A stretch of DNA of 64,000 nucleotides from Kribbella qitaiheensis (GTDB taxonomy: Bacteria; Actinomycetota; Actinomycetes; Propionibacteriales; Kribbellaceae): contig NZ_CP043661.1 of NCBI RefSeq assembly GCF_014217565.1, forward strand, positions 4,092,001-4,156,000. The letters are read 5' to 3'. Shown piece by piece: positions 13,399 through 37,504 of the stretch (within the stretch, counting starts at the first letter, position 1; each line of letters begins with the position of its first letter). The notes under the pieces were generated by a model. The model had not been told where the DNA came from. It saw nothing but the letters and a program-made list of their open reading frames with translations, and made no database searches. Both the position numbers and the translations under genes were made by a program.

Positions 13399-14859
13399 TC
13401 AGTGGCGGGTTACCGCGTCGAGCGCGTCTGCGATGCCTTCGCCGTAGAAGGCGTTGTTGGCGGTGGTGCCGGTGCAGCGGGCGTCCGGGGTGGTCGGGCA
13501 GGCGGTGTCGTCGGCTTCCTTGCGGAGCGCCTTCTCCAGGTCGCGCGGGGTCCACCACGGGTGGGTCGACTTCATCAGGGCGGCCACGCCGGTGACGTGC
13601 GGCGATGCCATCGACGTACCGCTCATGGTGCCGTAGCCGCCACCCGGGAGGGTGGACAGGATGCCGCTACCGGGAGCCGCCACGTCGATCTTGTTCAGGC
13701 CGAAGTTGGAGAAGCTGCTCCGTGCCTTCGCCTGGGTGGTGCTGGCGACCGTGATCACGCCGGGGAGCTCGGTCGGCATGTCGAGGCAGCTGTTGTCGAG
13801 CTGCCGCGGTGCCGGGGTGCTGTCGTCCGGGCTGCCGTTGTCGGTGGTCTTGTTGGCCAGGTCGTAGTTGGAGTTACCGGCCGCCGCGACGGACAGCACG
13901 CCCTTCTTGGTGGCGAATTCGACCGCGCGCCGGACCGACTCCTGGACCGCGCCCTGGTCGCCGCTGTCCTTGCACCAGAATTCCCACGGGTCGATGTAGT
14001 AGCTGTGGTTCGTCACGTCCATGTGGTGCTGAGCGGCCCAGATCCAACCGCAGATCGCGTACTCCGGGTAGATGAACCCATCGTCGTTGACGACCTTCAC
14101 CGACGCGATCCGCACACCCGGGGCGACCCCGACGATGCCGACGCCGTTGCGGGCCGCGGCCACCGTGCCGGCCACGTGCGTGCCGTGCGAGCTGGTTGTC
14201 GGCCGCCAGGCGCCGGCGGTGGTGTCGGGCACACCGTTGTTGATGCAGTTGACCGAGTCGCTGGCGTCGAAGTTCGGCGCCAGGTCCGGGTGGGTGTCGT
14301 CCACACCGGAGTCGTTGATCCCGACCAGGACGCGGCGGGAGCCGTCGGTGACGTTGTGGGCCAGGTCAGCTTTGATCTGCTTCATGTCCCACTGCTCGGC
14401 CTCGCGCGGATCCGCGACCGGAGCGGCCTCGCCGGCCATCAGCCCCTTGGCCGAAGTCAGCTTGACGCCGGCAGCGGAGCCGACCGGGCCTTCGCTGACA
14501 GCGGCAGTCCGGGTGGCACCGACCGACTGGACCTCGCGGCCGTTGCGGCCGACCCGTACGTCGGTACGGAAGTCCGGGTTGGTCGATTGCGCGATCACGA
14601 CGCCGATCTGGGCGTACGACTGGACCACGGTGCCGCCGGCGGCCTTGACCGCCTGCTCGACGCGCTTCACGTGCGGGTAACTGGCCTTCGTGTTGACCGC
14701 GTAGTTCATCAGCGGACCGGGCTCGGCCGCTGCCGTAGTGGATCCGGCCGGCGCGTACGGCGCGGCCTGTGCGGCGGTTGCGGCGCCGGCCGTGGTGAAC
14801 GCCAACGCGAGCACAGCCAGTCCGGCACTCAGCCGGCGGGTACCAAAACTTCGGGACAC
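13399..14859 (-). CDS. Secreted S8 family serine peptidase (subtilisin-like)
   Basis: This 486-aa protein begins with a typical signal peptide (RRLSAGLAVLALAFTTAGAA, then ATAAQAAP). A prosequence of about 120 residues precedes the catalytic domain. The catalytic triad is plain: Asp in VGINDSGVDDTHPDL, His in SSHGTHVAGTVAA and Ser in GTMSGTSMASPHVTGVAAL, with the oxyanion Asn region SVAAAGNSNYD. It is an extracellular protease, probably for protein scavenging or processing. No sorting motif or added C-terminal domain is present. It is monocistronic, with ATG 14859 upstream of a short gap to the GntR gene. Confidence 0.93.
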   Translation of the reverse strand: MSRSFGTRRLSAGLAVLALAFTTAGAATAAQAAPYAPAGSTTAAAEPGPLMNYAVNTKASYPHVKRVEQAVKAAGGTVVQSYAQIGVVIAQSTNPDFRTDVRVGRNGREVQSVGATRTAAVSEGPVGSAAGVKLTSAKGLMAGEAAPVADPREAEQWDMKQIKADLAHNVTDGSRRVLVGINDSGVDDTHPDLAPNFDASDSVNCINNGVPDTTAGAWRPTTSSHGTHVAGTVAAARNGVGIVGVAPGVRIASVKVVNDDGFIYPEYAICGWIWAAQHHMDVTNHSYYIDPWEFWCKDSGDQGAVQESVRRAVEFATKKGVLSVAAAGNSNYDLANKTTDNGSPDDSTPAPRQLDNSCLDMPTELPGVITVASTTQAKARSSFSNFGLNKIDVAAPGSGILSTLPGGGYGTMSGTSMASPHVTGVAALMKSTHPWWTPRDLEKALRKEADDTACPTTPDARCTGTTANNAFYGEGIADALDAVTRH

Positions 14860-15132
14860 ACTCTCTCCTTGGGGCGACAGCGAGTGGACGGAAACGCTCT
14901 CGCGACTCTAGAGCGCTTCGTCGGCACCGACGTCGCCACCCTCCGAACACACGGGAAACCCTGCACCAACCACTACCCACAGTCCCGACCGTCACCCTCC
15001 GCAGTGACCTCCTTGCCCACAGCTGTGGACGGCCCTGTGGACAACCTGTGGAGTCAACAGCCTCGCCGGGCACCATGGGGTTGCGTGTAAGATAGATACA
15101 ACAGAGATACCAGATGCATATGTGAGGGTGAG

Positions 15133-15864
15133 TTGAGTAACGGGGTGCCGGAACAAGTGCCGGCGAAGGTGGTGCTGGGGGACGAGACGATCGAGATCGC
15201 GCGGATCGTCGCGGAGGCGGGACCGGCCGTGGAGCGGATTCCGGCCGCCGAGCGGGTTTACGCGTTCGTGAAGGCAGCGATCCTGGACCGGGTCTACCCC
15301 GGCGGCGAGCTGCTGACCGAGGGAGAGCTGGCCACCGCGGTGGGAGTCTCCCGTACTCCGGTCCGCGAGGCGCTGCTGCGGCTGGAGGAGTCCGGCCTGG
15401 TCAAGCTGTACCCGAAGAAGGGCGCGCTGGTCCTGCCGGTGCTGCCGCAGGAGATCAACGACGTCCTCGAGGCGCGCGAGCTGATCGAGACGCACGCCGC
15501 CGCGAAGGTCTGGCCGCGGCGCAAGCAGCTGGTCGAGAAGCTGGTCCCGCTGGTCCAGGAGATGCGCAAGTACAAGAAGGCCGGCGACGCGAAGAGCTTC
15601 CTGGAGGCCGACCGGGCCTTCCACGAGGCCATCGTCGGTGCCGCCGGCAACGAGATCCTGGCCAGGCTGTACAACAGCCTCCGCGACCGGCAGGTCCGGA
15701 TGGGCGTACCCGGTATCGAGGTCCAGCCGGCCCGGATGGACAAGTCCATCGCCGCGCACCAGGAGATGATCGACGCCCTCTGCGGGAACAGCCCCAAGCG
15801 GTTCCGCGAGCTCGTCATCGCGCACATCCACGTCGCCGCGGCGGATCTGCGGAGCCTGCAGTGA
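15133..15864 (+). CDS. GntR-family regulator with FCD domain
   Basis: This 243-aa protein probably starts at TTG 15133 after GAGGGTGAG. The winged HTH is AERVYAFVKAAILDRVYPGG followed by LLTEGELATAVGVSRTPVRE and ALLRLEESGLVKLYPKKGAL. The FCD effector domain follows (EARELIETHAAAK, DRAFHEAIVGAAGNEILA, HQEMIDAL). It overlaps the downstream MFS gene by 4 nt (GTGA), so it most likely controls that transporter in response to the transported acid or its metabolite. The upstream gap is AT-richer than its surroundings and may hold its operator, but no clear dyad was found. Confidence 0.88.
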   Translation: MSNGVPEQVPAKVVLGDETIEIARIVAEAGPAVERIPAAERVYAFVKAAILDRVYPGGELLTEGELATAVGVSRTPVREALLRLEESGLVKLYPKKGALVLPVLPQEINDVLEARELIETHAAAKVWPRRKQLVEKLVPLVQEMRKYKKAGDAKSFLEADRAFHEAIVGAAGNEILARLYNSLRDRQVRMGVPGIEVQPARMDKSIAAHQEMIDALCGNSPKRFRELVIAHIHVAAADLRSLQ

Positions 15865-24529: not shown

Positions 24530-25363
24530 CTAGCCCAGGCTGAGGAGGAGGATGCCGACTACTACTACGGCGGCGGCTATGGCTCGTTTGGGGCCGAAGC
24601 GTTCGCCGAAGAAGAGGGCGCCGATGATGGCGCCGAAGATGATGCTGGTTTCGCGGAGGGCTGCGATGGCTGCGAGGGCGCCACGGGTTTGGGCCCAGAG
24701 GACCAGGCCGTAGGCGGCTAGCGAGACGAGGCCGCCACCGAGGCCGGCGTACAGGTAGCGCTTCTCGACGCGCAGGAAGCTGAAGCCGCGGCGCCAGAGG
24801 ACGAACAGGATGAGGATCAGGTTCTGCAGGGTGAAGGTCCAGCCCATGTAGGAGGCGAGCGGGATCTTGCGGACAGCGATGCCGTCGACCACCGTGTACG
24901 CCGCGATCACGAGGCCGGTGCCGAAGGCCGCCAGTAGCGCCGGCGCCTGGCTCCGGGTCGGGCGGCCGCCGATGAAGACCAGAGCGATCAGACCCGCCGA
25001 GATGAGCAGTACGCCGGCCAGCTCCAAGCGGACCAGGTGCTGGTTCAGGAGCAGGATCGCGACCAAGGCGACCACCCAGGGCGACGTACCGCGCGCCAGC
25101 GGGTAGACCTGGCTGAACTGGCCGAAGTTGTACGACGCCACCAAGCCCGAGTAGTACACGATGTGCAGCACGACCGACGCGACGATGTACGGCCAAGCGT
25201 TCGAAGGCGGCAGACCGGTCACCGTCACTGCGACAATCGCGCACGTCCCGGATGACAACCCGAGCAGCGCGAACCCACCAAGCCGGTCCGGTACGCCGTG
25301 CGCCATCGCGTTCCACGCCGCATGCAGCACAGCCGCTCCGAGTACCGCCAGCAACACCACCAC
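24530..25363 (-). CDS. EamA/DMT-superfamily permease
   Basis: The protein of about 277 aa has ten hydrophobic segments in two EamA repeats (VVLLAVLGAAVLHAAWNAM; ASYNFGQFSQVYPLARGTSP; WVVALVAILLLNQHL; RGALAAIAALRETSIIFGAI; IIGALFFGERFGPKRAIAAA). The RETS and GERF motifs are typical of the second repeat. The start is uncertain: GTG 25363 begins just before the first membrane segment, while GTG 25399 is further upstream in frame. It converges with the serine hydrolase gene. The substrate is unknown; DMT carriers often export amino acids or metabolites. Confidence 0.82.
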   Translation of the reverse strand: MVVLLAVLGAAVLHAAWNAMAHGVPDRLGGFALLGLSSGTCAIVAVTVTGLPPSNAWPYIVASVVLHIVYYSGLVASYNFGQFSQVYPLARGTSPWVVALVAILLLNQHLVRLELAGVLLISAGLIALVFIGGRPTRSQAPALLAAFGTGLVIAAYTVVDGIAVRKIPLASYMGWTFTLQNLILILFVLWRRGFSFLRVEKRYLYAGLGGGLVSLAAYGLVLWAQTRGALAAIAALRETSIIFGAIIGALFFGERFGPKRAIAAAVVVVGILLLSLG

Positions 25364-25406
25364 CTCGCCACCCTCTCCCGACTCGGGTCCACCCACCACC
25401 GAGTTT

Positions 25407-25594
25407 CTAGGAGTGGACTCCTCGGACTGGCCGACGGTTTGCGGTGGGAATGGGACGGGTGCCGTCGTGGTCGACGTGGAACAGGTACCCGTGGGGACTG
25501 GTCCATTCCAAGGTGTTGGCGTCGACGCGACGGACCGACCAGCCGCCGTGGGTCTTGACGCGATGACTGAAGCGGCGCAGTGGCGCGAGGTTGC
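25407..25594 (-). pseudogene. C-terminal fragment of a DUF222/HNH (13E12-type) protein, cut off by the integrated element
   Basis: The minus strand encodes NLAPLRRFSHRVKTHGGWSV followed by RRVDANTLEWTSPHGYLFHV and a stop at 25407. This is the end of an HNH nuclease domain, whose usual form is GNLxPLCRxHHRxKTHGGW. It has no start, and an in-frame TGA lies just upstream inside the element. Joined to the fragment at 32200-33729 through the shared heptamer GCAACCT, it restores one uninterrupted frame of 566 codons reading QTSTGNLAPLRRFSHRVKTH across the joint. It is therefore the chromosomal right half of the insertion target. Confidence 0.88.
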
Positions 25595-25618
25595 TTGTTC
25601 CTCACAAGTTGGTAACTT
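25588..25618. other. Attachment site at the left end (attL-type)
   Basis: The core AGGTTGC (25588-25594) is followed by the element half-arm CTTGTTCCTCAC (25594-25605) and a small dyad AAGTT-ggt-AACTT (25606-25618). Bases left of the core are target-gene sequence. Confidence 0.75.
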
Positions 25619-26001
25619 TCGCCCAGCGAAGCGCGGATGCAGAAAAACACGACCCCGACCGGCCGCCTACTGGGAGTATCCGAGTGATTACGGAATGTCC
25701 CAGTGGGTTGCGGCCACGGAATCGCGCTACATGAAAGCTATTCAGTTGTCAGGCCCGACATTCCCCGTGCGCTCGGAGTCGCGCACGGAGGATGCCGGGG
25801 TGTTCACAATCCCCCGCCCACTATGGGGGCTCACACAGGGGCAGGCGGAGGATTGCGTCTTGGATACGGCGGGGGCATGCGGTTCTCTTTCCCGTCGGGC
25901 GGAATGGTCACACCACACGCGCCCCGCCGAAGTCAGGAATGATCGAGTAACAAGGCGGAAGGCTCGCCCCTTCCCCAAGCACATCAACCACCCTGACCGG
26001 T
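25619..26001. other. Stretch without a confident gene at the element's left end
   Basis: Several overlapping short frames exist on both strands, but none has a convincing start, codon pattern or recognisable domain. It may hold decayed sequence or a site for an excision factor. Confidence 0.5.
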
Positions 26002-26358
26002 CTACTCGACGTGTCCGGCAATCAGGATTTCTATACCGTAACTATGGAAGGCTGCTAGAACTTCCATCGGGTGATTTCCGAGGCCGGTGAGATGGTGCAC
26101 ACCGGGAATGATCAACACGTTTCCTTTGACGGCCTGAAGCTTTGCAATCATCTGAGTGAATGCGTCGGGCACACTTTCTAGCTTCTCTTCGAAAATGTCA
26201 TCTACCTTCAAGCCGCGTGACTGGCCGAAGCGAATCAGACCGTCCCGGGCGCGTCGGAAGTCGCTAGCGCTCATCATTGGCAATTCCCGTATGTAGACGG
26301 CGACATACGGCTTCTGCTTCTCTCTAATTTCCATGATATCCCCGTGTACTAGCTTCAT
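26002..26358 (-). CDS. Small protein resembling a degenerate serine-recombinase catalytic fold
   Basis: This 118-aa protein starts at ATG 26358 after AAAGGA. The pattern YVAVYIRELPMMSASDFRRA, then GLKVDDIFEEKLESVPDAF, LQAVKGNVLIIPGVHHLTGL and FHSYGIEILIAG follows the strand/helix order of resolvase catalytic domains (YxRVS, DxxSG, LxVxRLDRL, GIxxxxx). The nucleophile serine after the first strand is absent, so recombination activity is unlikely. It may be a recombination directionality or regulatory factor, or a repurposed fold. It is the last of three leftward genes in the cargo segment. The assignment is by pattern only. Confidence 0.5.
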   Translation of the reverse strand: MKLVHGDIMEIREKQKPYVAVYIRELPMMSASDFRRARDGLIRFGQSRGLKVDDIFEEKLESVPDAFTQMIAKLQAVKGNVLIIPGVHHLTGLGNHPMEVLAAFHSYGIEILIAGHVE

Positions 26359-26410
26359 TCGCCGGTTCCTTTTCGGTGGAAAGCTCGTTTATCGGGTTCC
26401 GTAAAACAGT

Positions 26411-26524
26411 CTATTGACTATCGCGTTTGTAATGCACCCAGGCGGCTGCTAGAAGAAACCCTGCCCCGCAACAAGCGAGAAATATGGCAATGTGGATTAG
26501 ATTCGCGGTGATCTCGTTACTCAC
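26411..26524 (-). CDS. 37-residue single-span membrane peptide
   Basis: The start GTG 26524 overlaps the stop of the upstream 63-aa gene (GTGA). The product MSNEITANLIHIAIFLACCG continues AGFLLAAAWVHYKRDSQ: a short polar N-terminus, about 21 hydrophobic residues with a CC pair, and a basic C-terminal tail. The layout fits a tiny membrane protein such as a toxin, holin-like peptide or membrane anchor. No homologue is recognised. The translational coupling and clean topology argue that it is real. Confidence 0.5.
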   Translation of the reverse strand: MSNEITANLIHIAIFLACCGAGFLLAAAWVHYKRDSQ

Positions 26525-26712
26525 GACAACGGAAGCAGAGTGCTGGGGTCCGGCAAGTCAGGCAGGGGATCAGACGTAATCCGTAGCGAAGGGAAACGTC
26601 GACGCATGGCAATCACGTACTCGCTCGCTAGGTCTCCGCAGGCGACATGATCAGCGATTGTTGACCTGCCGAACCACACGCGAACTCGCCGCCTGTCTGT
26701 GATCGTCGTCAT
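26521..26712 (-). CDS. Small conserved-type hypothetical protein
   Basis: This 63-aa protein starts at ATG 26712 with GAGG close upstream. The sequence VRVWFGRSTIADHVACGDLA with YVIAMRRRFPSLRITSDPLP resembles a group of short actinomycete hypothetical proteins with a WxGxxxADH opening and an AMRRRF segment. No function is known. It is divergent from the large HTH-TPR-YdcF gene, with a 75-bp gap that must carry both promoters, and is coupled to the 37-aa membrane peptide. Confidence 0.6.
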   Translation of the reverse strand: MTTITDRRRVRVWFGRSTIADHVACGDLASEYVIAMRRRFPSLRITSDPLPDLPDPSTLLPLS

Positions 26713-26787
26713 TGGCCTCGTCGCACCCTTTCCAGTCTCGAAGGTTGTTGGTGTCTCGCGGTTCTGGAAACAGCTTGGCTCGCGGAC

Positions 26788-28680
26788 TTGTGGCGCATAA
26801 CGGCCGTCTGCCGCCCTTCCGTCGCCCTTTGGTCGCCCTCAAGCGGACTGACCTGCCAGAATGGGAGTGACCCAGAGAGGTGGAGCGAGCTGCACGAGCA
26901 GTGGACAGGCCAGTCAGCAAGGCTGCTGCGGACACGCGCCTTGCGCCTTAGCGTGCGCGAATTCGCGGCCCTGCTGGGCGTGCCTGACAGGACGGTGTCC
27001 AAGTGGGAGGCCGCCGGGGAAAGCCGGACGCCGCGACCGCACATGCAGGCCATCTTGGACACGGCGCTTCATCTGGCCGATGCAGAAGCTCAGGCGCGCT
27101 TTGAAAACGCTCTTGGTTCAACAGGCTCGATTGATTCGCCTAGTACCGGAATATTCTTACCCTCTGGCAATGGCGTCGATGTTAATTCTTGGGCGGACGA
27201 CGTTGATCGGGCTCGGCTTTATGCTGACCGACAGGATTTCCAGTTTGCATCACGCTTAATGCAGCGGTGGCTCGTCCGAGCGGAAGATGCCCGAATGGAC
27301 GAAAGTACTATTTACCTCAAAGGTCAAAGTCTCGTGGTGTTGGGAAATGTTCAACGGGATCAGGGGATTCTGCGAGGCCCCCATTCGGCAGACTCGGTGT
27401 ACCGGCAGGCTCTGGCCTGTTTCAAGTCATTGCATGCGGACCGGCGGCACGCTCAGGTTGAGCTTTTGACCACTGTTCTTGCTGAGATGTCAGGCGGACT
27501 AGAGGTGTCCGCCCGGCAATATCAACTTTTGGCCGATGACGAACGTTTGGGCGCGCTTGATCGTGCAAGGGCAAGGCTCTGGATTGGCACTGCTCTTTCT
27601 AAGAAATCTCGCCTGACTGAGGATCGGTCGGACGCGACAGTTCAGGCTATCGTGCGTGCAATTCAGGATTTCGAGACTCTAGATGAACCTGATGAGTGGA
27701 GCGTCTCTCATCAGAAGTTGGCACTTGCATATCTTGCCGCTGGTGATCCAATCAAAGCCGCCGAGGCGATCGATATCGCTGCGACTGGACACCATTTGGG
27801 TTCTCCCTTGCAACAAGTTCGCTTGAGTACCGCGCAAGCTCATATCTTATGCTCGGATCCTGCAAGTCGTGACAGCGGATTTGCACTCCTAGACCAGACT
27901 TACGAATTGGCTGAGAAATTCGGTCTAGCTCATCAGATGGTCAGCATTAGGCGTATCCGCGCCGACGTTGAATCGACACCAAAGCAGAAGAATTCTAACT
28001 CCCCCGGAAGGAAACCTCTAGCCGTGGCCGCCTTACCCACCAGCGAACAACTCGAAGATGCCCTGCTTATCTGGAAGTATCACCAGATGGGCCATGAGTT
28101 AAAGTCGGTAGACGCTGCGATCGGACTTGGGAGTCATGACCTAGGCGTTGCTGACTACGCGGCCGAACTGTATCGCCGAGAGTTCTTCCCCGTGGTTGTT
28201 TTCAGCGGTGGGAACAGTCCGACGACTAAGGCTAAATTCCCGCGAGGTGAGGCCGTTCATTATAAGGAACATGCCGTGTCGCTCGGGATTCCGGAGACGT
28301 CTATTCTGGTCGATGTTGAGGCCACGAACACGGGTCAGAACATCACATTGTCGAAAAGGGTCCTCGCGCAAGAGAGCATTCTGCCGGACAGCGTAATGCT
28401 CATCTCGAAGCCGTACATGGAACGGCGAGCATACGCAACGTGTCGCAAAATGTGGCCGGAAGTGCAGGTCGTGTGCGCATCCGAGCCCTTGAAGTTTGAC
28501 GACTACATTTCGAACATTGGCAACGCAAAGCTCGTTATCGATATGCTTGTCGGCGACTTGCAGCGTGTTATCGAGTATCCGAAGATGGGCTTTGCCGTAG
28601 AACAAGTGGTCCCGGAGGAAATTCAAGGCGCGTTCCAACGCCTTATCGAGGCCGGATACACCTCGCGGCTCATGAGTTAG
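26788..28680 (+). CDS. HTH-TPR-YdcF (DUF218) fusion protein, cargo of the integrative element
   Basis: The frame of 630 codons opens at TTG 26788; no ATG or GTG occurs in frame before the conserved part, so the true start is uncertain. About residues 35-95 form an XRE-like helix-turn-helix (LRLSVREFAALLGVPDRTVS, KWEAAGESRTPRPHMQAILD). About 120-400 are helical TPR-like repeats (DEWSVSHQKLALAYLAAGDP). About 415-630 are a YdcF/SanA/ElyC-type DUF218 domain (DAAIGLGSHDLGVADYAAEL, FFPVVVFSGGNSPTT, VDVEATNTGQNITLSKRVL). YdcF-fold proteins bind nucleotide-like ligands and act in envelope or unknown reactions. The WbqC gene starts directly after its stop. GC is near 50-55%, well below the chromosome. 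Confidence 0.75.
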   Translation: MWRITAVCRPSVALWSPSSGLTCQNGSDPERWSELHEQWTGQSARLLRTRALRLSVREFAALLGVPDRTVSKWEAAGESRTPRPHMQAILDTALHLADAEAQARFENALGSTGSIDSPSTGIFLPSGNGVDVNSWADDVDRARLYADRQDFQFASRLMQRWLVRAEDARMDESTIYLKGQSLVVLGNVQRDQGILRGPHSADSVYRQALACFKSLHADRRHAQVELLTTVLAEMSGGLEVSARQYQLLADDERLGALDRARARLWIGTALSKKSRLTEDRSDATVQAIVRAIQDFETLDEPDEWSVSHQKLALAYLAAGDPIKAAEAIDIAATGHHLGSPLQQVRLSTAQAHILCSDPASRDSGFALLDQTYELAEKFGLAHQMVSIRRIRADVESTPKQKNSNSPGRKPLAVAALPTSEQLEDALLIWKYHQMGHELKSVDAAIGLGSHDLGVADYAAELYRREFFPVVVFSGGNSPTTKAKFPRGEAVHYKEHAVSLGIPETSILVDVEATNTGQNITLSKRVLAQESILPDSVMLISKPYMERRAYATCRKMWPEVQVVCASEPLKFDDYISNIGNAKLVIDMLVGDLQRVIEYPKMGFAVEQVVPEEIQGAFQRLIEAGYTSRLMS

Positions 28681-29382
28681 GTGCATACGTTGAATCGAAT
28701 TTGCGCCATTCATCAGCCGAACTTTCTTCCGCGTCTAAGCACGATAGCCAAGATCTTATCTGCGGATGTTTGGATCATCCTTGATGATGTGCAGTTCTGC
28801 CGACGTGACTACCAGAACCGCGCAAAGCTCGCCTCACTCGCAACTCCTGAAATGTGGCACTGGCTTACCCTGCCGGTGCATCTGCCCGATGGACAGCGCA
28901 CTGAGATTCGACGGGTGGAGTTTGCCGACACTTACAAACTCGCGAGACGCGTTCGCCGGATACTCGCACAGAACCTTAGGACTGGCCCACAATGGGACGC
29001 GCTTGAGCATGCTTTAAGGCCGGTTCTGACCCAAATTGAAGAATCCAAGCAACTTCACGAAGTGGCAGAGCTATCGACTCGCGTTCTGCTAGAGATGGTC
29101 GGATGGCATGGACAGATAGTCCGAAGCAGTGACTTTGAAGTGAGGCAGGACCGCTCATCGCGATTGGCTGACCTAACGCAGGCCGTACAGGCTGAGACGT
29201 ACTTGTGCGGTACCGGCGGAAGACGCTACCTAGACGAATCGCCTTTCACACAAGCTGGTCTCACCGTTGAATACTTTGAAAGTCCGCACTGGCTCAGTTC
29301 TGAGATTTGGCACTCTGGCAAAGGCCTCAGCGCCGTCTGCACGCTCTCGGAGCACTCCCTCCAGCCTCCACACGCATGCTGA
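28681..29382 (+). CDS. WbqC-family protein
   Basis: This 233-aa protein begins at GTG 28681, immediately after the TAG of the upstream gene. It shows the WbqC hallmarks: AIHQPNFLPRLSTIAKILSA, DVWIILDDVQFCRRDYQNRA, WLTLPVHLPDGQRTEIRRVE and YLCGTGGRRYLDESPF. WbqC proteins occur in O-antigen and other glycan or unusual metabolite clusters. Their reaction is not established, and a transfer or ligase role is suspected. The last residues (LSEHSLQPPHAC) look shortened, and the same frame continues past the stop into high-GC sequence from another gene, so the 3' end may have been rearranged. Zero spacing to the YdcF fusion implies a shared function. Confidence 0.78.
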   Translation: MHTLNRICAIHQPNFLPRLSTIAKILSADVWIILDDVQFCRRDYQNRAKLASLATPEMWHWLTLPVHLPDGQRTEIRRVEFADTYKLARRVRRILAQNLRTGPQWDALEHALRPVLTQIEESKQLHEVAELSTRVLLEMVGWHGQIVRSSDFEVRQDRSSRLADLTQAVQAETYLCGTGGRRYLDESPFTQAGLTVEYFESPHWLSSEIWHSGKGLSAVCTLSEHSLQPPHAC

Positions 29383-29889
29383 GCCCCCGGCAAGTTCCTG
29401 CTGTCGGCACCCGGTCACGACACCGCCCGCAAAGCCCGCGCCTACTGGATCACAGACAAGGAGATCACCCGCACCGCCACACGCAACGCACGCCCCACCG
29501 ACCGGCCCCAGGACCAGTCGCGCGACGGCTCGGCGAACGTCCCCGGGACCCACGCCGGCCACAACCCTCGCGACGGCTCACAGACCCCGTCAGGAGCCGC
29601 ACAGGCGGGACCGGGACAGACCGCGACCTCAGCGACCACACGAAAGGACGACCGGCCGACCAGCCCTGACATGGTGCTGTGGCAGGCACTGACCACCGCA
29701 CCACCCGAAGGGCTCAGCCCGGCCCAGCTACGCGACCTCACCGGCATCTCCGCCCGGACCATCACCCGACGGCTCAGCACCGCTCACGCTGCCGGAGTCA
29801 TCACCCAAGTCAGTAAAGGCAGGTGGCGGGCGACCCGCCCCGGAAAACCCGCCGACCCACCCACCCCGAGAAACAGTGACGTTACGTGA
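29383..29889 (+). pseudogene. C-terminal remnant of a high-GC gene with a winged-helix end
   Basis: Directly after the WbqC stop and in the same frame, 168 codons are open: APGKFLLSAPGHDTARKARA, a low-complexity linker, then LRDLTGISARTITRRLSTAH with AAGVITQVSKGRWRATRPG, a winged helix-turn-helix. There is no start codon with a ribosome site at the beginning; a 72-aa frame from ATG 29671 would cover only the helix-turn-helix. The abrupt GC rise at about 29340 suggests a joint between imported cargo and the original backbone of the element. It was perhaps a replication or regulatory gene. Confidence 0.5.
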
Positions 29890-30020
29890 TCGTCCCCGGA
29901 TCGTCCCGTCGTCCCGAAATCCCGGCCTCGCCCGCACGTTAAGGGCACACGTCCATCCGCACCGGGACAAACGGACACGCCCCCGCGCCAATCACTCACG
30001 GTGATCGAAAGGCAGTGCAT

Positions 30021-30058
30021 GGGCCGAGCGCTGAATGGGGGTTTTCAGCGCCCGGCCC
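30021..30058. terminator. Long hairpin upstream of the small element ORF
   Basis: GGGCCGAGCGCTGAA (30021-30035) pairs with TTCAGCGCCCGGCCC (30044-30058) with one mismatch. It may be a terminator of the fragment at 29889 or a structural element. Confidence 0.5.
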
Positions 30059-30135
30059 GTTCCACGCGAGCCGGGGTGACCCGGCTCATGGATGCGCGCA
30101 ACACCCGGAAACCTACCCACCGGAGGTGAGCCACC

Positions 30136-30396
30136 ACGACACAGCCGAACCATCACGCCAACCGCGCCGCACAACCGGCGAGAAAGGAGCCACAAGCAAC
30201 CACCACCCGCACCAACCAGCGCACCGGACCCGACGAGTCCGGCCGCTGGCCAACCGCCGAACAAACCGCCGCGCAGGAAGGATCAGCCCTCACCATCGAA
30301 CGAGCCGATGAACTGGTCGCGCCCGTCGTCGCCGCAGCACCCGCACCGACCCCAGAACTCATCGAGCTACTCGCCCGGCTTCTCGGCCACCGCTAA
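30136..30396 (+). CDS. Small hypothetical ORF, apparently with an ACG in place of a start codon
   Basis: An open frame of 87 codons runs from ACG 30136 to TAA 30394-30396 (TTTRTNQRTGPDESGRWPTA, ALTIERADELVAPVVAAAPA, PELIELLARLLGHR). GGAGG lies 9 nt upstream of the ACG, and no ATG, GTG or TTG occurs at the expected place, so the start may have mutated from ATG or the gene is dead. The C-terminal amphipathic helix looks like real protein. It ends just before a strong terminator facing the integrase gene. Confidence 0.35.
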   Translation, partial: TTQPNHHANRAAQPARKEPQATTTRTNQRTGPDESGRWPTAEQTAAQEGSALTIERADELVAPVVAAAPAPTPELIELLARLLGHR

Positions 30397-30414
30397 CCCC
30401 ATCCGCACCAACAA

Positions 30415-30458
30415 ACGCCGTGCCCGCAACCCCTTCTCAGGGATTGCGGGCACGGCGT
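30415..30458. terminator. Bidirectional terminator
   Basis: ACGCCGTGCCCGCAA (30415-30429) is exactly complementary to TTGCGGGCACGGCGT (30444-30458), with an inner CCC/GGG. It lies between the small ORF (+) and the end of the integrase gene (-). Confidence 0.85.
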
Positions 30459-30476
30459 CTTGGCGTCCGCTTCTGG

Positions 30477-32180
30477 TCACTGCGCCTTGCGGCTAGTCCG
30501 TGGCTTGGTCGGCGTCTTCTCAGCCGCTGCCGCCTTCTGTGACGCGGTCGGCCGCTGCTGACGCTTCGGCGGGGCCGGGATGCTGTCGGGGTCCCAGTCG
30601 GTCAGGAACTTGACCCGGTCCTCCGGCTCGCACCGGGGACCCGGTGACGGGGCAGGCAGCACGGCCAGATACCCCAGCCACTCCGGCACCAGCAGATACC
30701 GCGCCACCAGACGGCGAGTGGACATCGGAGCGTCTTCCCACCACTGGTCAACGTCTTGCCCCGGATCGAGAATGCCCGCCATCTCCGCAGGCGTCGTCAA
30801 CTCCTTCTCCCGCCCTTCCGCCGCGAGCAGACGGGCAAGAATGCCGGGCTCTGCACCGGCCGCGAGCATCGGAGAGATTTCACCCCTACCCAGCTTGTCG
30901 GCAAGGTCACGATGCTCGGCGCGGATATCCGCGATCTCGTCACGAACCGCTTTCAGCGCCTTGCCATTCCCGGACCGCTGCGCGAACTTGCTGTAAACAT
31001 CCTTACGCTTCACGAAGCCCTTGATAGCGCGCTCCGCCAAAACATCAACCTCAGCCTTACCGATCCTGACACAGCCCCGCTTATGGCAGGTGTACTCGGC
31101 ACGCTCATTCTTGAACCTGACCGCGATACACCCACCACACTTCCCACACCTACCGATCATCGACACAAGATGAATGCCCCGGCCCGGTCGCGTGGTGCTG
31201 CGCGTCTTGTCGGCCAAGATCTCCTGAACCGCGAAGAACTGGTCCCGCGACACCAACGCATCCCACTGGCCGGGAAGGTACTGCACAGTTTCCTTGTTCG
31301 GCAGGCCACCTTTACGGCCCGGATCGTAAACCCGCTCCCCGATATAGACACGATTCAAGGCAAGAGCGCGCAAATGCTCAGAAGTCCACGGCTTCCCCGA
31401 CCGGGTCCGGTATCCCTCACGATCGAACTCTGCGGCGATCTCCCGCAACGAATGCCGTGCCTCCAACCGCGCGAACAGTTTCGCCACAATCGGCGCTTCG
31501 TTCGGGTCCGGTTCCTGCGCCACGAACTTTCGCGTCAGCCCGTCATACTGACGACGGTAACCGAACGGCACCCGGCCATGCGGCTTACCCGCCCGGGCAT
31601 CCGCAGCAATAGCACGTAAAGACCGCTGAGAAATCTTCCAGGCGTCATACTCGGAATCTGTCGCGTCTTCGATCAGCGAACGACGATCCCGGCCGTTCGC
31701 CGGATCATAAGTGCGGTGATGCGTCGTGACGTGAATCAAAACGCCGCGCGACTCGCACAAATCAATGAGATAAACCCATTCGCCGACCTCACGGCTACCC
31801 CGCGACGATTCCCACAACATCAAAACCTGAGCACCGAAAGTATCCGCCTCAAGATCCGCAATCAGCCGCTCGAAATCCTCACGCTCACGCTGCTTGTACC
31901 GCGACGCCGAACGGTTGTCATCACGGTACGGCTTCCCCAGAACAAACCCGACCCGCGACGCCTCCTCAGCGTTCTCATCGTGCTGCTCCTCCGGCGAACG
32001 AGCAACCCCGGACTTGTCCGACGACACCCGCAGATACTCACGCGCACCCAACCCACCACCCGCAGCACCCACCCCAGCCACCCCAGGTGCCATCACCAGC
32101 GCGGCAACAGCAGCCTGTTTCGCCTTACCTGCTTGAAGATTCGCACTCCTGCGCCTCGGTCCCGCCGTAGACTTCGTCAT
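30477..32180 (-). CDS. int: Large serine recombinase (integrase) of the 6.6-kb element
   Basis: The 567-aa product starts at ATG 32180 and has the three parts of a large serine integrase. The resolvase catalytic domain has AREYLRVSSDKSGVARSPEE with the nucleophile Ser and VLMLWESSRGSREVGEWV. The Recombinase domain runs through GKPHGRVPFGYRR and RTRSGKPWTSEHLRAL. A zinc-ribbon region has CGKCGGCIAVRF and YTCHKRGC, followed by a coiled region. The C-terminus is lysine/arginine rich. It would catalyse attP x attB recombination; the attachment core is 33 bp from its start. Excision would need a directionality factor, not identified here. Confidence 0.95.
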   Translation of the reverse strand: MTKSTAGPRRRSANLQAGKAKQAAVAALVMAPGVAGVGAAGGGLGAREYLRVSSDKSGVARSPEEQHDENAEEASRVGFVLGKPYRDDNRSASRYKQREREDFERLIADLEADTFGAQVLMLWESSRGSREVGEWVYLIDLCESRGVLIHVTTHHRTYDPANGRDRRSLIEDATDSEYDAWKISQRSLRAIAADARAGKPHGRVPFGYRRQYDGLTRKFVAQEPDPNEAPIVAKLFARLEARHSLREIAAEFDREGYRTRSGKPWTSEHLRALALNRVYIGERVYDPGRKGGLPNKETVQYLPGQWDALVSRDQFFAVQEILADKTRSTTRPGRGIHLVSMIGRCGKCGGCIAVRFKNERAEYTCHKRGCVRIGKAEVDVLAERAIKGFVKRKDVYSKFAQRSGNGKALKAVRDEIADIRAEHRDLADKLGRGEISPMLAAGAEPGILARLLAAEGREKELTTPAEMAGILDPGQDVDQWWEDAPMSTRRLVARYLLVPEWLGYLAVLPAPSPGPRCEPEDRVKFLTDWDPDSIPAPPKRQQRPTASQKAAAAEKTPTKPRTSRKAQ

Positions 32181-32196
32181 ACCCACACACTAACGC

Positions 32197-32219
32197 CACT
32201 TAGTGAGGTACAAGGTTGC
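32197..32219. other. Attachment site at the right end (attR-type)
   Basis: The element half-arm GTGAGGTACAAG (32203-32214) runs into the core AGGTTGC (32213-32219); DUF222/HNH coding sequence continues to the right. Joined with the left arm it gives a dyad with 11 of 12 paired positions around GTTG. Confidence 0.75.
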
Positions 32220-33729
32220 CGGTGCTGGTCTGGCCCGGTGGGCCGCCTGGCCGGTAGGGCCGAATGTGGTCGAGGTCGGTGGAGGTAGTGGTTTCACCGG
32301 TGCCGTAGGGGAACTGTTCGACCGGGTAGCGCAGCTTGTTGTGGTCGCGGATCCGGCCGGGGATCTCGTAGGCGTGAACGCTGAGGGCAGTGCCGAGGTC
32401 GATCACCGGCCGAAGAACGATCCGGTGATGCCCGAGGAGTTCTTCAAGCTTGCCGGTGTAGACGGGTCCGTAGCCTTCGACGCGTGCTGTCCCGGCACCG
32501 GCCAGCAGGGTTTCGTCGGTGATGTGCAGGTTGACCACGGTCTGATAGATCCGCCGCCGGTCGGGGTGATCGCCTCGGACGGCCTCGATCCTGCGTCGCA
32601 GTTCGAGACGCGCGACAGCGTCCATCCCCGCGGAGACAGGGACATCCGCCGGCGCGGATACCTCATCCGAGCCGGGCTTGCTGCGCGGTGGCTGATCCGG
32701 TCGAGACGGCTCGCCGCGCGTTGCAGGCGTGGCGGACCGCTCATGGTCAGTCAGGGTCCTTTGTGGGTGGTGGTCGAGCGGGTGGTTCGGTGTGTTCGGG
32801 TGTGGAGTGTCGCGGTCGGCGTCGTCCGGGCCGGGCTCGGCGAGACCGTCGCCGGACTGGGTCGCTGGGTGGCGGGCAGGATCAGGGATCGACCGCACGA
32901 TGGCGAGTTCGTTGTCTTCGTCGACCGGAAGACGGTCCGGTCCGGCCGCGGTGGTGGAGAGGTGGCGGGCGGCCGCTGCGAGGAGGTCGGCGGCCAGGCC
33001 GGGGTCGGACAGGAGGCCGGCGGCCTTGGCGCGGCGCTGGTCGAGCGGATCGGTGTCGCCGACAGCGGCCAATGCGTCGGCGAGCTGGGCGATCGTCGCG
33101 TTCAACGCGATGATGTCGCCGGTCGCGCCCTTCACGAACAAGGTGGTCGTGCCGTGATCATCGGTCCGCCCGACCCACACACCACGCTCCTTCGCTCTCG
33201 CCTCGGCCTTCGCCTTCGCATCCCCGGCATCGGCTTCCCACATCGCCGCCTTGATGATCGCCTTCAACTGGATCAAGGTCACCGAGTCGATGATGTCGGC
33301 GACCCGCCGGTCCACGATCGCCGCGACCGCCAGCGACAACGTCACGCAGTCCTGGACAACCTGGAGGGCTTTCCAGCCCGTCGCGGCACCGGACTGGACT
33401 CGTTCCCAGGTGAGCGGGAAGCGGTAGGGCAACGCGACTGCCTGTCCGATGAAACGCGCCGCCGACGCGGACGACCGGCCGATGACCGCGCCGAACTCGG
33501 CGACGGCGAACTCCGCGATCTCCGGGCACCCCTCACCGCCATAGACCCGGGCCTGTTCACCACCCGGCAGGCCGTCATCGCGGACCCGCGACGGTGCGGG
33601 ATGGAGCTCGGCGTAGTGCTGAGCGAGGAGGATCAACTCGAGTTCGCTTTCGCGCTGCCGCTCGTGCGCGGCAGCGGCCAAAGACAGCGTCTCGGCCGTG
33701 TCACACCCAGCAAGATCGATGGCGAACAT
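32200..33729 (-). pseudogene. N-terminal 9/10 of a DUF222/HNH endonuclease-like protein (13E12 family), split by the element
   Basis: From ATG 33729 the frame encodes a DUF222 domain (EFGAVIGRSSASAARFIGQA, VALPYRFPLTWERVQSGAAT, LAVAAIVDRRVADIID), a variable proline/aspartate-rich linker, and the first half of an HNH nuclease (STDLDHIRPYRPGGPPGQTS). It then ends after TGNLVPH at a stop contributed by the element (32200). The lost C-terminus lies at 25407-25594. The rebuilt protein would be 565 aa. This family is repeated in many actinobacterial genomes, including REP13E12 of mycobacteria, and its function is unknown. The truncated form keeps the DH of the HNH motif but lacks the last helix. 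Confidence 0.88.
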
Positions 33730-33946
33730 GTGTTCGACTATACGGCAGATGCTAACCCCGGCCAAATCGAAGGACAGCCGCTTTTCCCTTATCCACAAGG
33801 GGAAACCTCACATCCACGCCTCGACCTCGAACATGTATGCAAGCTGGGGTCGCCGGCTGTGGCGAGGCGGAGGTCCAGTACGACGACGCCGGTGACTGCG
33901 GTGCACGGATAGTGAATCTCTGACAAGACATCAATCACCTTGAAAA

Positions 33947-33990: not shown

Positions 33991-35361
33991 TCAGAACATC
34001 AGTGCGCGGGCGGGGTCCTCGAGGATGCCGGCGACGTCGGCGAGGAAGGTGGAACCCTTCTCGCCGTCGATCAGGCGGTGGTCGAAGGACAGCGCCAGAG
34101 TGGTGATCCAGCGCGGCACGATCTCGTCGTTGACCACCCACGGCTGCTTGCGGACCGCACCGAAGGCGAGGATCGCGGCCTCGCCAGGGTTGATGATCGG
34201 CGTACCGGCATCGACGCCGAACACCCCGACGTTGGTGATCGTGAACGAACCGCCGGCCTGGTCGGCCGGTTGGGTCTTGCCTTCACGAGCCACCGCCACC
34301 AGGTTGTTCAGCGCGGCACACAGGTCGGTCAGGCTGAGCGACTCCGCAGCCTTGATGTTCGGCACGATCAGCCCGCGCGGAGTGGCCGCGGCGATGCCGA
34401 GGTTGACCGAGCCCTTGAGCACGATCTCCTGAGCAGCCTCGTCCCACGCCGCGTTGATGATCGGCGTCCGGCGAGCAGCCAGCGTGACCGCCTTCATGAG
34501 GATCAGCAGCGGCGACACCCGCAGGTCCCGGAACGCCTTGTCCTGCTTGAGCCGATCGACGAGCTCCATGGTGGCGCTGACGTCGACGGTGATCCACTCG
34601 GTCACATGCGGCGCGGTGAACGCGCTGCTCACCATCGCCTGCGCCATCACCTTCTGCACACCCTTGATCGGAATCCGGGTGTCGCCCTGAACGCTGACCA
34701 CAGGAGCAGCAGCCCGTACTACGGCCGCCGGCGCGCTGTGGTTCTCGACGTCCGCCCGGGTGATCACTCCACCCGGCCCGGTCGCCGTCACCACGCCAAG
34801 ATCGATCCCCAGGTCCTTGGCCAGCTTCCGCACCGGCGGCTTCGCCAGCACCTGCACGGATCCTGAGGTCTCATTGCTCTGGGCAACTACAGGTTCGGGT
34901 GCCGGAGCAACTACTTCTTCGACCACCAAAGGAGCAGCGCCACCCTTGCGGGGCCGGCGCTTTGCCTCGGTCGTCTTCGGGCCGTAGCCGACCAGGACCG
35001 CGGTGCGTCCGCCAGGAGCGGCGCCACCGATCTTGCCGGCTTCGATCTCCTCGCCGTCCGGGAGCGACGGGACCATGTCCTCGGCACCCGTTCCGGTCGG
35101 CACCGGAGCACCGGCCGCGTCGGCCGTCTGGACGGAGATGATCGGCGTACCGACGTCGACCGTCTCGCCTTCCGGCACGAGCAGCTCGGTGACGACACCG
35201 GCGTACGGGACCGGGAGCTCGACCAGCGACTTGGCCGTCTCGATCTCGACGATCGTGTCGTTCAGCTTGACCGTGTCGCCGACCTTGACCTTCCAGCTGA
35301 CGATCTCGGCCTCGACCAGGCCTTCTCCCACATCCGGGAGGCGGAACTGCTGGATCCCCAT
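33991..35361 (-). CDS. bkdC: Branched-chain 2-oxoacid dehydrogenase E2 (dihydrolipoamide acyltransferase)
   Basis: This 456-aa protein has an N-terminal lipoyl domain with the lipoylated lysine in VEIETAKSLVELPVP, an alanine/proline linker, a peripheral-subunit-binding domain (VRKLAKDLGIDLGVVTATGP) and a C-terminal catalytic domain ending in the active-site ALSFDHRLIDGEKG. It transfers acyl groups from E1 to CoA to give branched-chain acyl-CoAs, used in catabolism and as starters for branched fatty acids. ATG 35361 overlaps the E1-beta stop by one base (TGATG). One lipoyl domain and the E1a/E1b neighbours favour a branched-chain or pyruvate-type complex; no E3 gene is adjacent. Confidence 0.93.
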   Translation of the reverse strand: MGIQQFRLPDVGEGLVEAEIVSWKVKVGDTVKLNDTIVEIETAKSLVELPVPYAGVVTELLVPEGETVDVGTPIISVQTADAAGAPVPTGTGAEDMVPSLPDGEEIEAGKIGGAAPGGRTAVLVGYGPKTTEAKRRPRKGGAAPLVVEEVVAPAPEPVVAQSNETSGSVQVLAKPPVRKLAKDLGIDLGVVTATGPGGVITRADVENHSAPAAVVRAAAPVVSVQGDTRIPIKGVQKVMAQAMVSSAFTAPHVTEWITVDVSATMELVDRLKQDKAFRDLRVSPLLILMKAVTLAARRTPIINAAWDEAAQEIVLKGSVNLGIAAATPRGLIVPNIKAAESLSLTDLCAALNNLVAVAREGKTQPADQAGGSFTITNVGVFGVDAGTPIINPGEAAILAFGAVRKQPWVVNDEIVPRWITTLALSFDHRLIDGEKGSTFLADVAGILEDPARALMF

Positions 35362-36339
35362 CAGTACTCCATCACCCGGTCGACACCTTCGAGCACCCGG
35401 TCCAGGTCGGGCAGGTACTCCTCCTCCATCCGCGACGGCGGGTAGGGGGTGTCGTAGCCGGCGACCCGCAGTACGGGCGCTTCCAGGTGGTAGAAGCACT
35501 CCTCGGTCACCCGGGCGGCGAGCTCCGAGCCGGTACCGAGTGACAGCGGCGCCTCGTGCACGACGACCGCGCGCCGGGTCTTCTTGACCGACGCGAAGAT
35601 CGTCGCCAGGTCCAGCGGCGCGATCGAGCGCAGGTCGATGACCTCCAGGTTGCGGCCGTCCTCGACCGCGGGCCTCGGCCGCCTGCAGACAGGTCTTCAC
35701 CATCGGGCCGTAACAGAACAGCGTGGCGTCGGTGCCCTCGCGGACCACCTTCGCCTGGTACAGCGAACTGCTCGGGCCGGCGGTCTCGTCCAGCTCCGCC
35801 TTCTCGTGGTAGCGCCGCTTGGGCTCGAAGAACACCACCGGGTCATCGGAGGCGATCGCCTGCTGGATCATCCAGTACGCGTCGACCGGATCGCCACAGG
35901 CGACCACCTTGAGGCCGGCGACGTGCGCGAACAGCGTCTCCGGGGACTCCGAGTGGTGCTCGACCGCGCCGATGCCGCCGCCGAACGGGATCCGGATCAC
36001 GATCGGCATCTTCAGCTTGCCCATCGACCGGTAGTGCATCTTGGCGACCTGGTTGATGATCTGGTCGTAGGCCGGGAAGACGAACCCGTCGAACTGGATC
36101 TCGCAGACCGGCCGGTAGCCGCGCAGCGCCAGACCGACAGCGGTGCCGATGATGCCGGACTCGGCCAGCGGGGTGTCGATCACCCGGTCCTCGCCGAAGT
36201 CCTTCTGCAGACCCTCGGTGACCCGGAAGACACCGCCGAGCTTGCCGATGTCCTCACCCATCATGATGACCTTCGGGTCCTTGTCCATGGCCGCCCGCAG
36301 GCCCATGTTGATGCCCTTGCCGAGGCTGATCTTCGCCAT
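35361..36339 (-). pseudogene. bkdB: Branched-chain 2-oxoacid dehydrogenase E1 beta subunit, frameshifted
   Basis: ATG 36339 opens MAKISLGKGINMGLRAAMDK, then VIMMGEDIGKLGGVFRVTEG, DTPLAESGIIGTAVGLALRG and YRPVCEIQFDGFVFPAYDQI, the normal E1-beta sequence. At about 35670-35672 (a GGG run on the plus strand) one extra base shifts the frame. In the corrected frame VEDGRNLEVIDLRSIAPLDL continues to the C-terminal VHEAPLSLGTGSELAARVTE and ends at 35361. The corrected length of 325 aa is normal. The single fault in an essential-looking operon makes an assembly error quite possible. The gene starts 1 nt after the E1-alpha stop. Confidence 0.88.
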
Positions 36340-36340
36340 C

Positions 36341-37504
36341 TCAGTTCTCCCCTTCGAAAGAGGCGGCATAGGCGGCGAACTGCGCCTGCTGCTCCACCAG
36401 TTGCGGGGTCTGCTCGACGTAGGCGTACTGGAAGAAGTCGGTCAGCGTCGGATCGGGCATCGACAGGCATCCCTCGCGCAGCCGGGCCGCGATCTGGTCG
36501 CCCTCGGCCTCGATCTCGTCGAAGAACTCGTGCTCCACGCCGAGCGAGCGGGTCAGATAGGCCTTCACCCGCTCGATCGGGTCCTTGAGCTTCCAGTACT
36601 CCAGGTCCTCGGACAGCCGGTACTTCGTCGGGTCGTCCGACGTCGTGTGGGCGCCCATCCGGTAGGTGTAGGCCTCGACGAAGGTCGGGCCACTGCCTTC
36701 GCGGGCCCGCTTCAGCGCCTGCTGGGTGACGGCGTACGTCGCGAGGACGTCGTTGCCGTCGACGCGGATGCCGGGGAAACCGAAGCCGGCGGCGCGCTGG
36801 TACAGCGGGATCCGGGTCTGCCGGTCGATCGGCTCCGAGATGGCCCACTGGTTGTTCTGGCAGAAGAAGACCACCGGCGCGTTGAAGACCGAGGCGTAGA
36901 TGAAGGCCTCGTTCACGTCGCCCTGGCTGCTCGCGCCGTCGCCGAAGTACGCGATCGTCGCCTCGCCGTTGTCGGCGTCGCCGACCGCGTGGTCACGCTG
37001 CTGGCCCATCGCGTAACCGGTCGCGTGCAGCGTCTGAGCGCCGATCACGATCGTGTACAGGTGGAAGTTGTTGTCGCGCGGGTCCCAGGCGCCCTGGTCG
37101 ACGCCGCGGAACAGGCCGAGCAGATTCAGCGGGTCGACGCCCTGGCACCAGGCCACGCCGTGCTCGCGGTACGTCGGGAAGACCATGTCCTTCTTGTTCA
37201 GCGCGCGGGCGGAGCCGATCTGGGCGGCCTCCTGACCGAGCAGGGAGGCCCAGATGCCGAGCTCACCCTGACGCTGCAGCGCAGTCGCCTCGGTGTCGAT
37301 CCGGCGGACCAGGGTCATGTCCCGGTAGAACCCCTTGATCGCCTCGTCGTCGAGGTCGAACGAGTAGTCCGGGTGCTCGACGCGCTCACCTTCGGGCGTC
37401 AGCAACTGGACGAACTCGACCTCCTCGGAGGCCTGGGACGGACTGACCGGCGCCTCGACGGGCGCGAACACTTCCGGGGCAAGGCCCGGCACCGACTCAC
37501 TCAC
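36341..37504 (-). CDS. bkdA: Branched-chain 2-oxoacid dehydrogenase E1 alpha subunit
   Basis: This 387-aa protein probably starts at GTG 37504, with GAGGAG about 6 nt upstream. It has the thiamine-diphosphate motif GDGASSQGDVNEAFIYASVF ending in VFFCQNNQWAIS, plus VFPTYREHGVAWCQGVD and the phosphorylation-loop-like YRMGAHTTSDDPTKYR. With E1-beta it decarboxylates branched-chain (or related) 2-oxoacids and acylates the E2 lipoyl arm. It is the first gene of the operon bkdA-bkdB-bkdC. An Lrp/AsnC regulator lies 11 kb away; bkd operons are often Lrp controlled, but no link is shown here. Confidence 0.93.
   Translation of the reverse strand: MSESVPGLAPEVFAPVEAPVSPSQASEEVEFVQLLTPEGERVEHPDYSFDLDDEAIKGFYRDMTLVRRIDTEATALQRQGELGIWASLLGQEAAQIGSARALNKKDMVFPTYREHGVAWCQGVDPLNLLGLFRGVDQGAWDPRDNNFHLYTIVIGAQTLHATGYAMGQQRDHAVGDADNGEATIAYFGDGASSQGDVNEAFIYASVFNAPVVFFCQNNQWAISEPIDRQTRIPLYQRAAGFGFPGIRVDGNDVLATYAVTQQALKRAREGSGPTFVEAYTYRMGAHTTSDDPTKYRLSEDLEYWKLKDPIERVKAYLTRSLGVEHEFFDEIEAEGDQIAARLREGCLSMPDPTLTDFFQYAYVEQTPQLVEQQAQFAAYAASFEGEN

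Follow-up and report, generated by a model that had tools for sequence, protein, structure and literature searches.

What does a protein do in which a regulator-like N-terminus is joined to a YdcF (DUF218) enzyme domain, and how is it related to the WbqC gene that begins on the base after its stop codon? The question is raised by two open reading frames (ORFs) in a 64,000-nucleotide stretch of Kribbella qitaiheensis DNA (contig NZ_CP043661.1, positions 4,092,001–4,156,000), referred to here as the window; coordinates are positions within it, L-numbers denote locus stretches from other genomes or plasmids and G-numbers denote genomes. The first ORF (26788–28680, + strand) runs for 630 codons from a TTG to a TAG at 28678–28680 and encodes a fusion of helix-turn-helix (HTH), tetratricopeptide repeat (TPR)-like and YdcF regions. 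The second (28681–29382, + strand) starts with a GTG directly adjacent to that stop and encodes a WbqC-family protein, confirming the gapless arrangement described in an earlier reading of the same letters (the original prediction). The low GC content reported there is also present: 0.54–0.57 in the three kilobases from 26001 to 29000, compared with 0.60–0.72 in the remaining kilobases of the window. Our analysis favours, with a probability of roughly one-half, the view that the pair belongs to a mobile cassette under its own regulator, whose two enzymes produce or alter an amide-linked small molecule in response to a signal.

Both enzyme assignments lie above the Pfam cut-offs. The YdcF domain (28042–28650, + strand) matches PF02698 over residues 443–561 of the fusion (E = 1.8e-17; 63.9 bits, cut-off 27.6), and PF08889 (WbqC) covers most of the second protein (E = 2.7e-36; 125.9 bits, cut-off 21.3), which retains the HQP motif and the LDDVQF block in alignments. 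The regulator part is less sharply delimited. Its HTH region (26917–27090, + strand; residues 44–101) falls under the Pfam cut-offs (HTH_31, E = 1.1e-4), and a TPR-like helical superhelix (27181–27975, + strand), for which Pfam gives no TPR match in the fusion protein, is seen in a predicted model of 26878–28677 (residues 102–366).

Conservation and probable regulation of the cassette

A first scan of genome contigs identified two Streptomyces loci in which separate HTH-TPR and YdcF genes are followed by WbqC. The stretches fetched comprise 40 from Streptomyces (mostly top-scoring matches from longer contigs) as well as 20 containing YdcF from the window's order; together with plasmids and a class sample, 51 loci contain both HTH-TPR and YdcF (L089, at a contig edge, and L118 lack an HTH-TPR match and were left out). 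WbqC lies directly after HTH-TPR/YdcF in 49 of the 51 loci, the exceptions being L068 and L174, and the three genes abut one another. The neighbourhood survey on which the original prediction had staked the pairing thus finds the association conserved. The fusion itself is not an essential feature: HTH-TPR and YdcF are fused in the window and in L067 and are separate genes in the other 49 loci. Apparent YdcF fusions in other genera, seen as open frames of 440–500 codons, proved to be out-of-frame, arginine-rich stretches in the five that were fetched.

At the level of the phylum, 12 of 396 genomes have a WbqC match; in Streptomyces the count is 89 of 392, many of the weaker matches there being partial or near 30% identity. 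An even class sample of 345 genomes includes 11 with an HTH-TPR match. Nine of these are full-length, all with YdcF directly downstream, and two are partial: a C-terminal remnant with YdcF downstream (G1101) and an HTH-only match located elsewhere (G1109). Among 72,556 plasmid records, the fusion has matches in 27 and WbqC in 29; the three plasmids with the HTH-TPR, YdcF and WbqC trio that were read are linear Streptomyces plasmids on which these genes are annotated as hypothetical protein, YdcF family and WbqC family. The range of the cassette therefore covers Streptomyces chromosomes and linear plasmids, the window's genus and a small number of further families in the class. Relatives of WbqC are also encoded on 22 contigs of a viral collection (IMG/VR; L139–L160).

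Nonsynonymous (dN) and synonymous (dS) divergence between the window and its nearest relative, L067, was estimated by the Nei–Gojobori method (NG86). The values are dN 0.11, dS 2.30 and dN/dS 0.05 for HTH-TPR; 0.11, 1.71 and 0.07 for YdcF; and 0.21, 1.41 and 0.15 for WbqC. By this measure the cassette is under purifying selection. Recurrence of the operon in dozens of genomes, together with these low ratios, argues that the pair is more than a chance association, and the proposal that an HTH-TPR protein is tied to both enzymes on conserved mobile cargo is supported. The distances of the three proteins are also correlated across 46 loci (Mantel r = 0.84, 0.91 and 0.77; none of 2,000 permutations was as high).

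Several genes accompany individual copies. Streptomyces cassettes have optional neighbours. A flavoprotein gene lies downstream at eight loci, some of them partial; in L004 (8469–9020) and similar loci this PF02441 gene lies directly 3' of WbqC, with fragments in other copies. A radical SAM gene is present at eight loci, five of which also have a kinase-like gene (assigned by eye). A gene pair encoding an S-adenosylhomocysteine hydrolase (SAHH)-like protein of 373 residues, assigned by eye, and a NUDIX protein of 183 residues lies 3–5.5 kb upstream of YdcF at 13 loci (L090, L092, L096, L098, L099, L101, L107, L108, L110–L113 and L174). The L067 cassette is located between an MvdD-type ATP-grasp (graspetide-like) gene (5198–6142) and a GajB-like gene; the latter and an adjoining ORF, GajA-like by eye, occupy 12013–13725 and 13718–15697 of that stretch. 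A 570-residue gene product of L067 that was considered as the same integrase as that of the window is this GajB-like helicase.

Three tandem 11-bp repeats, the third partial, span positions 26810–26839 (+ strand) of the window (GCCGCCCTTCC-GTCGCCCTTTG-GTCGCCCT) and form a putative operator for the regulator; 29 of the 30 bases are common to L067. Aligned upstream regions from Streptomyces contain tandem copies of GTTNYACTTCC about 90 bp before conserved QWTG codons. When a repeat is defined as a period-11 tandem match at 9 or more of 11 positions, it is found in 44 of 48 upstream regions compared with 37 of 960 random 200-bp windows, and control periods of 9, 10, 12 and 13 are found in one to four of the 48. 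Exactly one site with at most two mismatches is present in nine of ten cassette-bearing Streptomyces genomes, in each case just upstream of the regulator gene, and the tenth (G653) has none at this threshold. The reversed pattern has no site in the ten genomes, and the repeat of the window is the sole site in its own genome at up to three mismatches. Since 10 of the 11 genomes searched contain a single site, control by the regulator is probably confined to its own cassette, through this one promoter.

The same repeats make the TTG at 26788 a doubtful start for the fusion, contrary to the original prediction, because they would lie inside the N-terminus of that ORF and because in L067 an in-frame TGA at position 7471 interrupts the frame shortly before the conserved coding part begins. 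The true start is probably near 26890, with a CTG at 26890 as a candidate codon. Loss of the start through an 8-bp deletion in the window was rejected, as the alignment has no gap near the start.

A divergent gene on the other side of the repeats (26002–26358, − strand) encodes a 118-residue protein resembling small serine recombinases (PF00239, E = 4.3e-5). Active serine recombinases carry a YxRxS motif; the alignment places YIREL at this position, so the catalytic serine appears to be replaced, and no DNA-binding domain is seen. Such a gene lies beside the regulator in 48 of the 51 loci (it is missing from L074, L094 and L176), as detected with queries taken from four of those 48 (the window, L004, L068 and L087). 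The versions in L004 and L068 have no Pfam match.

Predicted functions of the regulator and the enzymes

The predicted structure of the fusion protein (pLDDT 73.5, pTM 0.52; five-row alignment) contains a stack of helical hairpins that accounts for the TPR-like region, and many TPR proteins are among its structural matches. These include the peptide receptors Rap (8RTC, Z = 21.4), NprR (5DBK, Z = 19.1) and AimR (5XYB, Z = 16.5). We treat the likeness to bacterial peptide receptors as resemblance only, because helical repeats often give Z-scores of this size and eukaryotic proteins take the top rows. No cognate pro-peptide gene was recognised; small ORFs outside the operon, including those in the ~530 bp between 26358 and 26890, were not searched. 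The YdcF part is modelled with the fold of Escherichia coli YdcF (3CA8), which is the only PDB sequence match of its profile (E = 7.7e-12), is also matched by Foldseek (E = 1.8e-5) and superposes over 212 residues at 3.1 Å (Z = 17.6). According to the available text of PMC3879167, which cites Chao 2008, E. coli YdcF binds S-adenosylmethionine (SAM).

The AlphaFold2 model of the WbqC protein has a pLDDT of 92.7 and a pTM of 0.89. When Foldseek candidates are aligned to it with VIA-align 2, BshC (4WBD) ranks first (Z = 13.2, 217 residues, 3.8 Å, 15% identity), followed by a tier of phosphopantetheine adenylyltransferases and tyrosyl-tRNA synthetases (Z ~7.8) and by PanC (Z = 6.7), all of which, BshC included, we take to be HIGH/HUP-type folds. 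BshC is bacillithiol synthase and joins cysteine to an amino sugar. Its position as the best match therefore suggests that WbqC is an ATP-dependent amide ligase, an assignment from the model that sequence profiles do not confirm. Other WbqC genes are found in a sugar cluster of a Streptomyces plasmid (L133), beside aminotransferase, nucleotidyltransferase and mutase genes, and in L134 beside nonribosomal peptide synthetase, PIG-L deacetylase and ATP-grasp genes. These neighbours are as expected of an amide-forming enzyme, and together with the predicted fold they suggest that WbqC probably forms amides with ATP.

In the reading that we favour, the HTH would bind the 11-bp repeats and thereby control expression of its own cassette only, along with the divergent recombinase-like gene, and the TPR superhelix would sense the input, either a peptide or a small molecule. 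WbqC would activate a carboxylate with ATP and join it to an amine, as BshC does with its two substrates. YdcF, with its nucleotide- or SAM-type fold, probably acts on the substrate or the product of WbqC, as its place in the operon and the fusion would suggest, and the net effect would be the production or modification of an amide-linked small molecule when the signal is present. The predicted folds, BshC-like for WbqC and similar to a SAM-binding protein for YdcF, support the original suggestion of a pair that produces a small modified molecule or transfers it to a target. As to the likeliest benefit in actinobacteria, our guess is chemical competition, such as the inactivation of an amine-bearing antibiotic, or signalling.

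Several results weigh against this reading. The likeness between WbqC and BshC comes from a predicted model; Foldseek returns no match to that model at E < 0.001, and BshC is not among the 50 rows listed, the most probable of which are a cytidylyltransferase (0.90), a tyrosyl-tRNA synthetase (0.77) and a universal stress protein (0.60). Alignment of the WbqC and BshC profiles with hhalign gives a probability of 0.4%, the local alignment of CAIHQPNFL with VAGQQPGIF being not significant. PF10079 matches none of 20 WbqC members, and WbqC profile searches of the PDB found no relative; the window's own genome has no PF10079 match. For the regulator, the HTH is poorly modelled and the profile matches in the PDB are weak (best E = 0.046). 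The correlated distances of the three proteins may reflect host phylogeny only. YdcF is without an established reaction, and in the available text of PMC3879167 the combined loss of sanA, ygjQ and ydcF left E. coli growing no differently from the wild type. Members of the YdcF subfamily also occur in the absence of WbqC, frequently with a GntR gene upstream, and WbqC is therefore not needed by every YdcF.

The GntR arrangement is recurrent. YdcF matches at E ≤ 1e-30 occur in 46 of the 345 class genomes; in 20 stretches picked from these, the gene directly upstream encodes GntR in 11, HTH-TPR in three and neither in six. In the set of 20 from the window's order, six stretches have GntR directly upstream of YdcF (L076, L078, L080, L081, L082 and L085). 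On plasmids, L129 has a GntR-YdcF pair (11920–13379) and L130 has one small gene between the two. In Actinomycetes the arrangement, which is also seen in L163–L166, L170, L172, L173 and L177–L180, is mostly without genes of actinomycete integrative and conjugative elements (AICEs) nearby.

The integrative element and its target gene

The cassette of the window lies on a mobile element, as originally proposed. A DNA search of the same genome found an intact copy of the interrupted gene (G000:C1:1911498–1913515; L135 999–3016) that joins window positions 25202–25594 to 32213–33844 without interruption, at identities of 99.7% and 99.6%, respectively. The sequence AGGTTGC is found at each junction (attL core 25588–25594, attR core 32213–32219) and once in the empty copy, and the element is therefore 25595–32219, a length of 6,625 bp. 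A large serine recombinase gene (30477–32186, − strand), with matches to PF00239, PF07508 and the phrog_95 integrase family (E = 3.4e-63), has its 5' end 26 bp from the attR core and probably encodes the integrase of the element. The recombinase, the att core repeats and the empty site that characterise a serine-recombinase integrative element are thus all present. Just 56 bp lie between the outer flanks (window 25418 and 33990) in a relative, L136, and these 56 bp match neither the split gene nor the element; the same flanks in L137 are separated by 2.6 kb without a match to the window, the gene or the element.

The original prediction described the element as being without transfer genes, and no intact one was identified in it; the remaining 168-codon open stretch (29383–29886, + strand) is possibly a remnant of a larger element gene, with weak winged-helix matches that are all below the Pfam cut-off (best HVO_A0261_N, E = 7.5e-5). 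The split gene is a 591-codon frame in the intact copy and has no Pfam family. A likeness to DUF222/HNH (13E12) proteins was considered, but Pfam gives no such match and the name is not used. Further whole or partial copies with 71–77% identity in the same genome indicate a duplicating gene family. ARAGORN found no tRNA genes in the window. Beyond the element, a 792-codon ORF (33991–36369, − strand) combines a dehydrogenase E1 beta-like start, an arginine-rich middle and an E2-like end, assigned by eye, and is probably two genes joined by a frameshift.

Alternative explanations and known systems

A new kind of mobile immunity or communication system based on amide conjugation is a related possibility that we consider unlikely. 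The TPR region would sense an invader or a neighbour, a BshC-type WbqC with YdcF would attach an amino acid to a nucleotide, sugar or antibiotic that bears an amine, and the regulator would be devoted to this single task. If this were true, WbqC proteins at large, including those of the 22 viral-contig loci, would be amino-acid ligases.

The original prediction saw in the locus the profile of a defence module. Anti-phage or anti-plasmid defence, in which the TPR region would sense infection and YdcF and WbqC would either produce a nucleotide-like signal or alter a target, causing the invader to fail, is in our judgement somewhat less likely still. Mobility, a dedicated regulator and low GC content are compatible with it, and defence genes accompany some copies: L067 has the GajB-like gene (E = 4e-159) and the adjoining ATPase-type ORF, L071 a type IV restriction gene and L088 LmuB. 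However, the PADLOC result for the fusion and WbqC is limited to a weak mad1 match on the HTH (E = 0.0064), and no phage record matches the fusion (WbqC has three partial matches). In a rough comparison, strong defence matches are also not enriched around the trio relative to loci where YdcF lacks WbqC. At E < 1e-40, three proteins are known among 85 trio neighbours (best 25 of 87 families), compared with five family names among 107 control neighbours (best 25 of 78 families), the two sets having been selected by slightly different rules. The former were up to five nearest called genes at 27 loci, of which 85 of 135 were kept by hand, most of those dropped being further members of families already included, and individual defence scans covered ten of the 85; the latter were up to four genes at 27 YdcF loci without WbqC. 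The original interpretation is supported for the conserved cargo and its enzymes and not for an essential fusion or a defence profile.

A module for the behaviour of the mobile element itself, providing its carriers with conjugal immunity or cell–cell communication in the manner of Pif, a Nudix protein of pSAM2, or of Rap-type conjugation regulators, appears rather improbable. Relaxase genes are present in the fetched stretch at 15 loci, and the TPR proteins that the TPR part resembles include NprR, AimR and the Rap proteins of pLS20 and phi3T. According to the available text of PMC3218068 and PMC11706625, Pif and genes of the GntR, XRE and NUDIX types are regular components of AICEs, and the AICE-like plasmid L129 lists GntR-YdcF and no NUDIX gene in a gene table that is incomplete. 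L129 had suggested a position for YdcF in conjugal immunity, which was rejected: any of eight tested AICE genes is present at only two of 18 other GntR-YdcF loci (7–16 kb, many 7–9 kb), and the other 16 have none. Moreover, 50 trio loci include a DUF3631 gene at 11 and an AICE integrase at one, and the element described here has no identified intact transfer gene.

We regard envelope or glycan tailoring as distinctly doubtful. Here the target of WbqC would be an amino sugar in a surface polymer, to which it would attach an amino acid, and envelope stress would be the regulator's signal. The name WbqC derives from O-antigen clusters, and the WbqC gene of plasmid L133 lies in a sugar cluster. 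A DUF218 protein, ElyC, acts in envelope biogenesis, but the available text of PMC3879167 gives an envelope phenotype for ElyC only, YdcF is predicted to be cytoplasmic and no glycosyltransferase family is among the best 25 of 65 Pfam families for the 85 trio neighbours. Least probable of all is a fortuitous, decaying fusion with a damaged protein start and no function in this genome, as might be imagined from the lack of an obvious ATG, GTG or TTG near the expected start and from the conserved repeats that overlap the ORF as first called, since L067 has the same fusion and open frame, the same repeat at all but one base and a cassette diverging at dN/dS of 0.05–0.15.

A regulated two-enzyme cassette acting on an amide-linked small molecule remains our preferred reading. 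An odd fusion becomes a defined, widespread unit with its own candidate operator; WbqC, a common family, acquires a testable biochemical guess; and a DUF218 protein tied to a dedicated regulator offers a genetic handle through an inducer screen and a binding site. The description of the pair as undescribed holds within the literature searched, where no paper was found that names both WbqC and YdcF. The searches found no report of the reaction of WbqC and none naming it alongside BshC, and YdcF and Streptomyces appear together only in a Bacillus whiA study. The enzymes are from known families, and cargo combining a regulator with an enzyme is already known on actinobacterial integrative elements, as PMC3218068 describes.

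That AICE cargo, exemplified by the mdp-nud-xre cluster and by Pif of pSAM2, likewise pairs a regulator with a nucleotide-type enzyme. It differs in using other enzymes, the main text of PMC3218068 being without YdcF or DUF218, and the kor-pif unit differs further in that most GntR-YdcF loci are not among AICE transfer or replication genes. E. coli YdcF shares its fold and PF02698 with the C-terminus of the fusion, but is a stand-alone domain without HTH-TPR. The model of WbqC has a common fold with BshC, but the latter is a 540-residue chain in 4WBD compared with 233 residues here, and profile similarity between them is not significant. The second gene belongs to the WbqC family by score and motifs; members named so far are in O-antigen or polysaccharide clusters, whereas here the gene is part of a regulator cassette. 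The RRNPP grouping comprises Rap, NprR, PlcR and AimR. These regulators have an HTH followed by a TPR superhelix, an order that the protein described here appears to share, its HTH being sub-threshold in Pfam and poorly modelled. It is set apart by being fused or tied to a YdcF enzyme and by the tandem direct repeats that form its candidate site.

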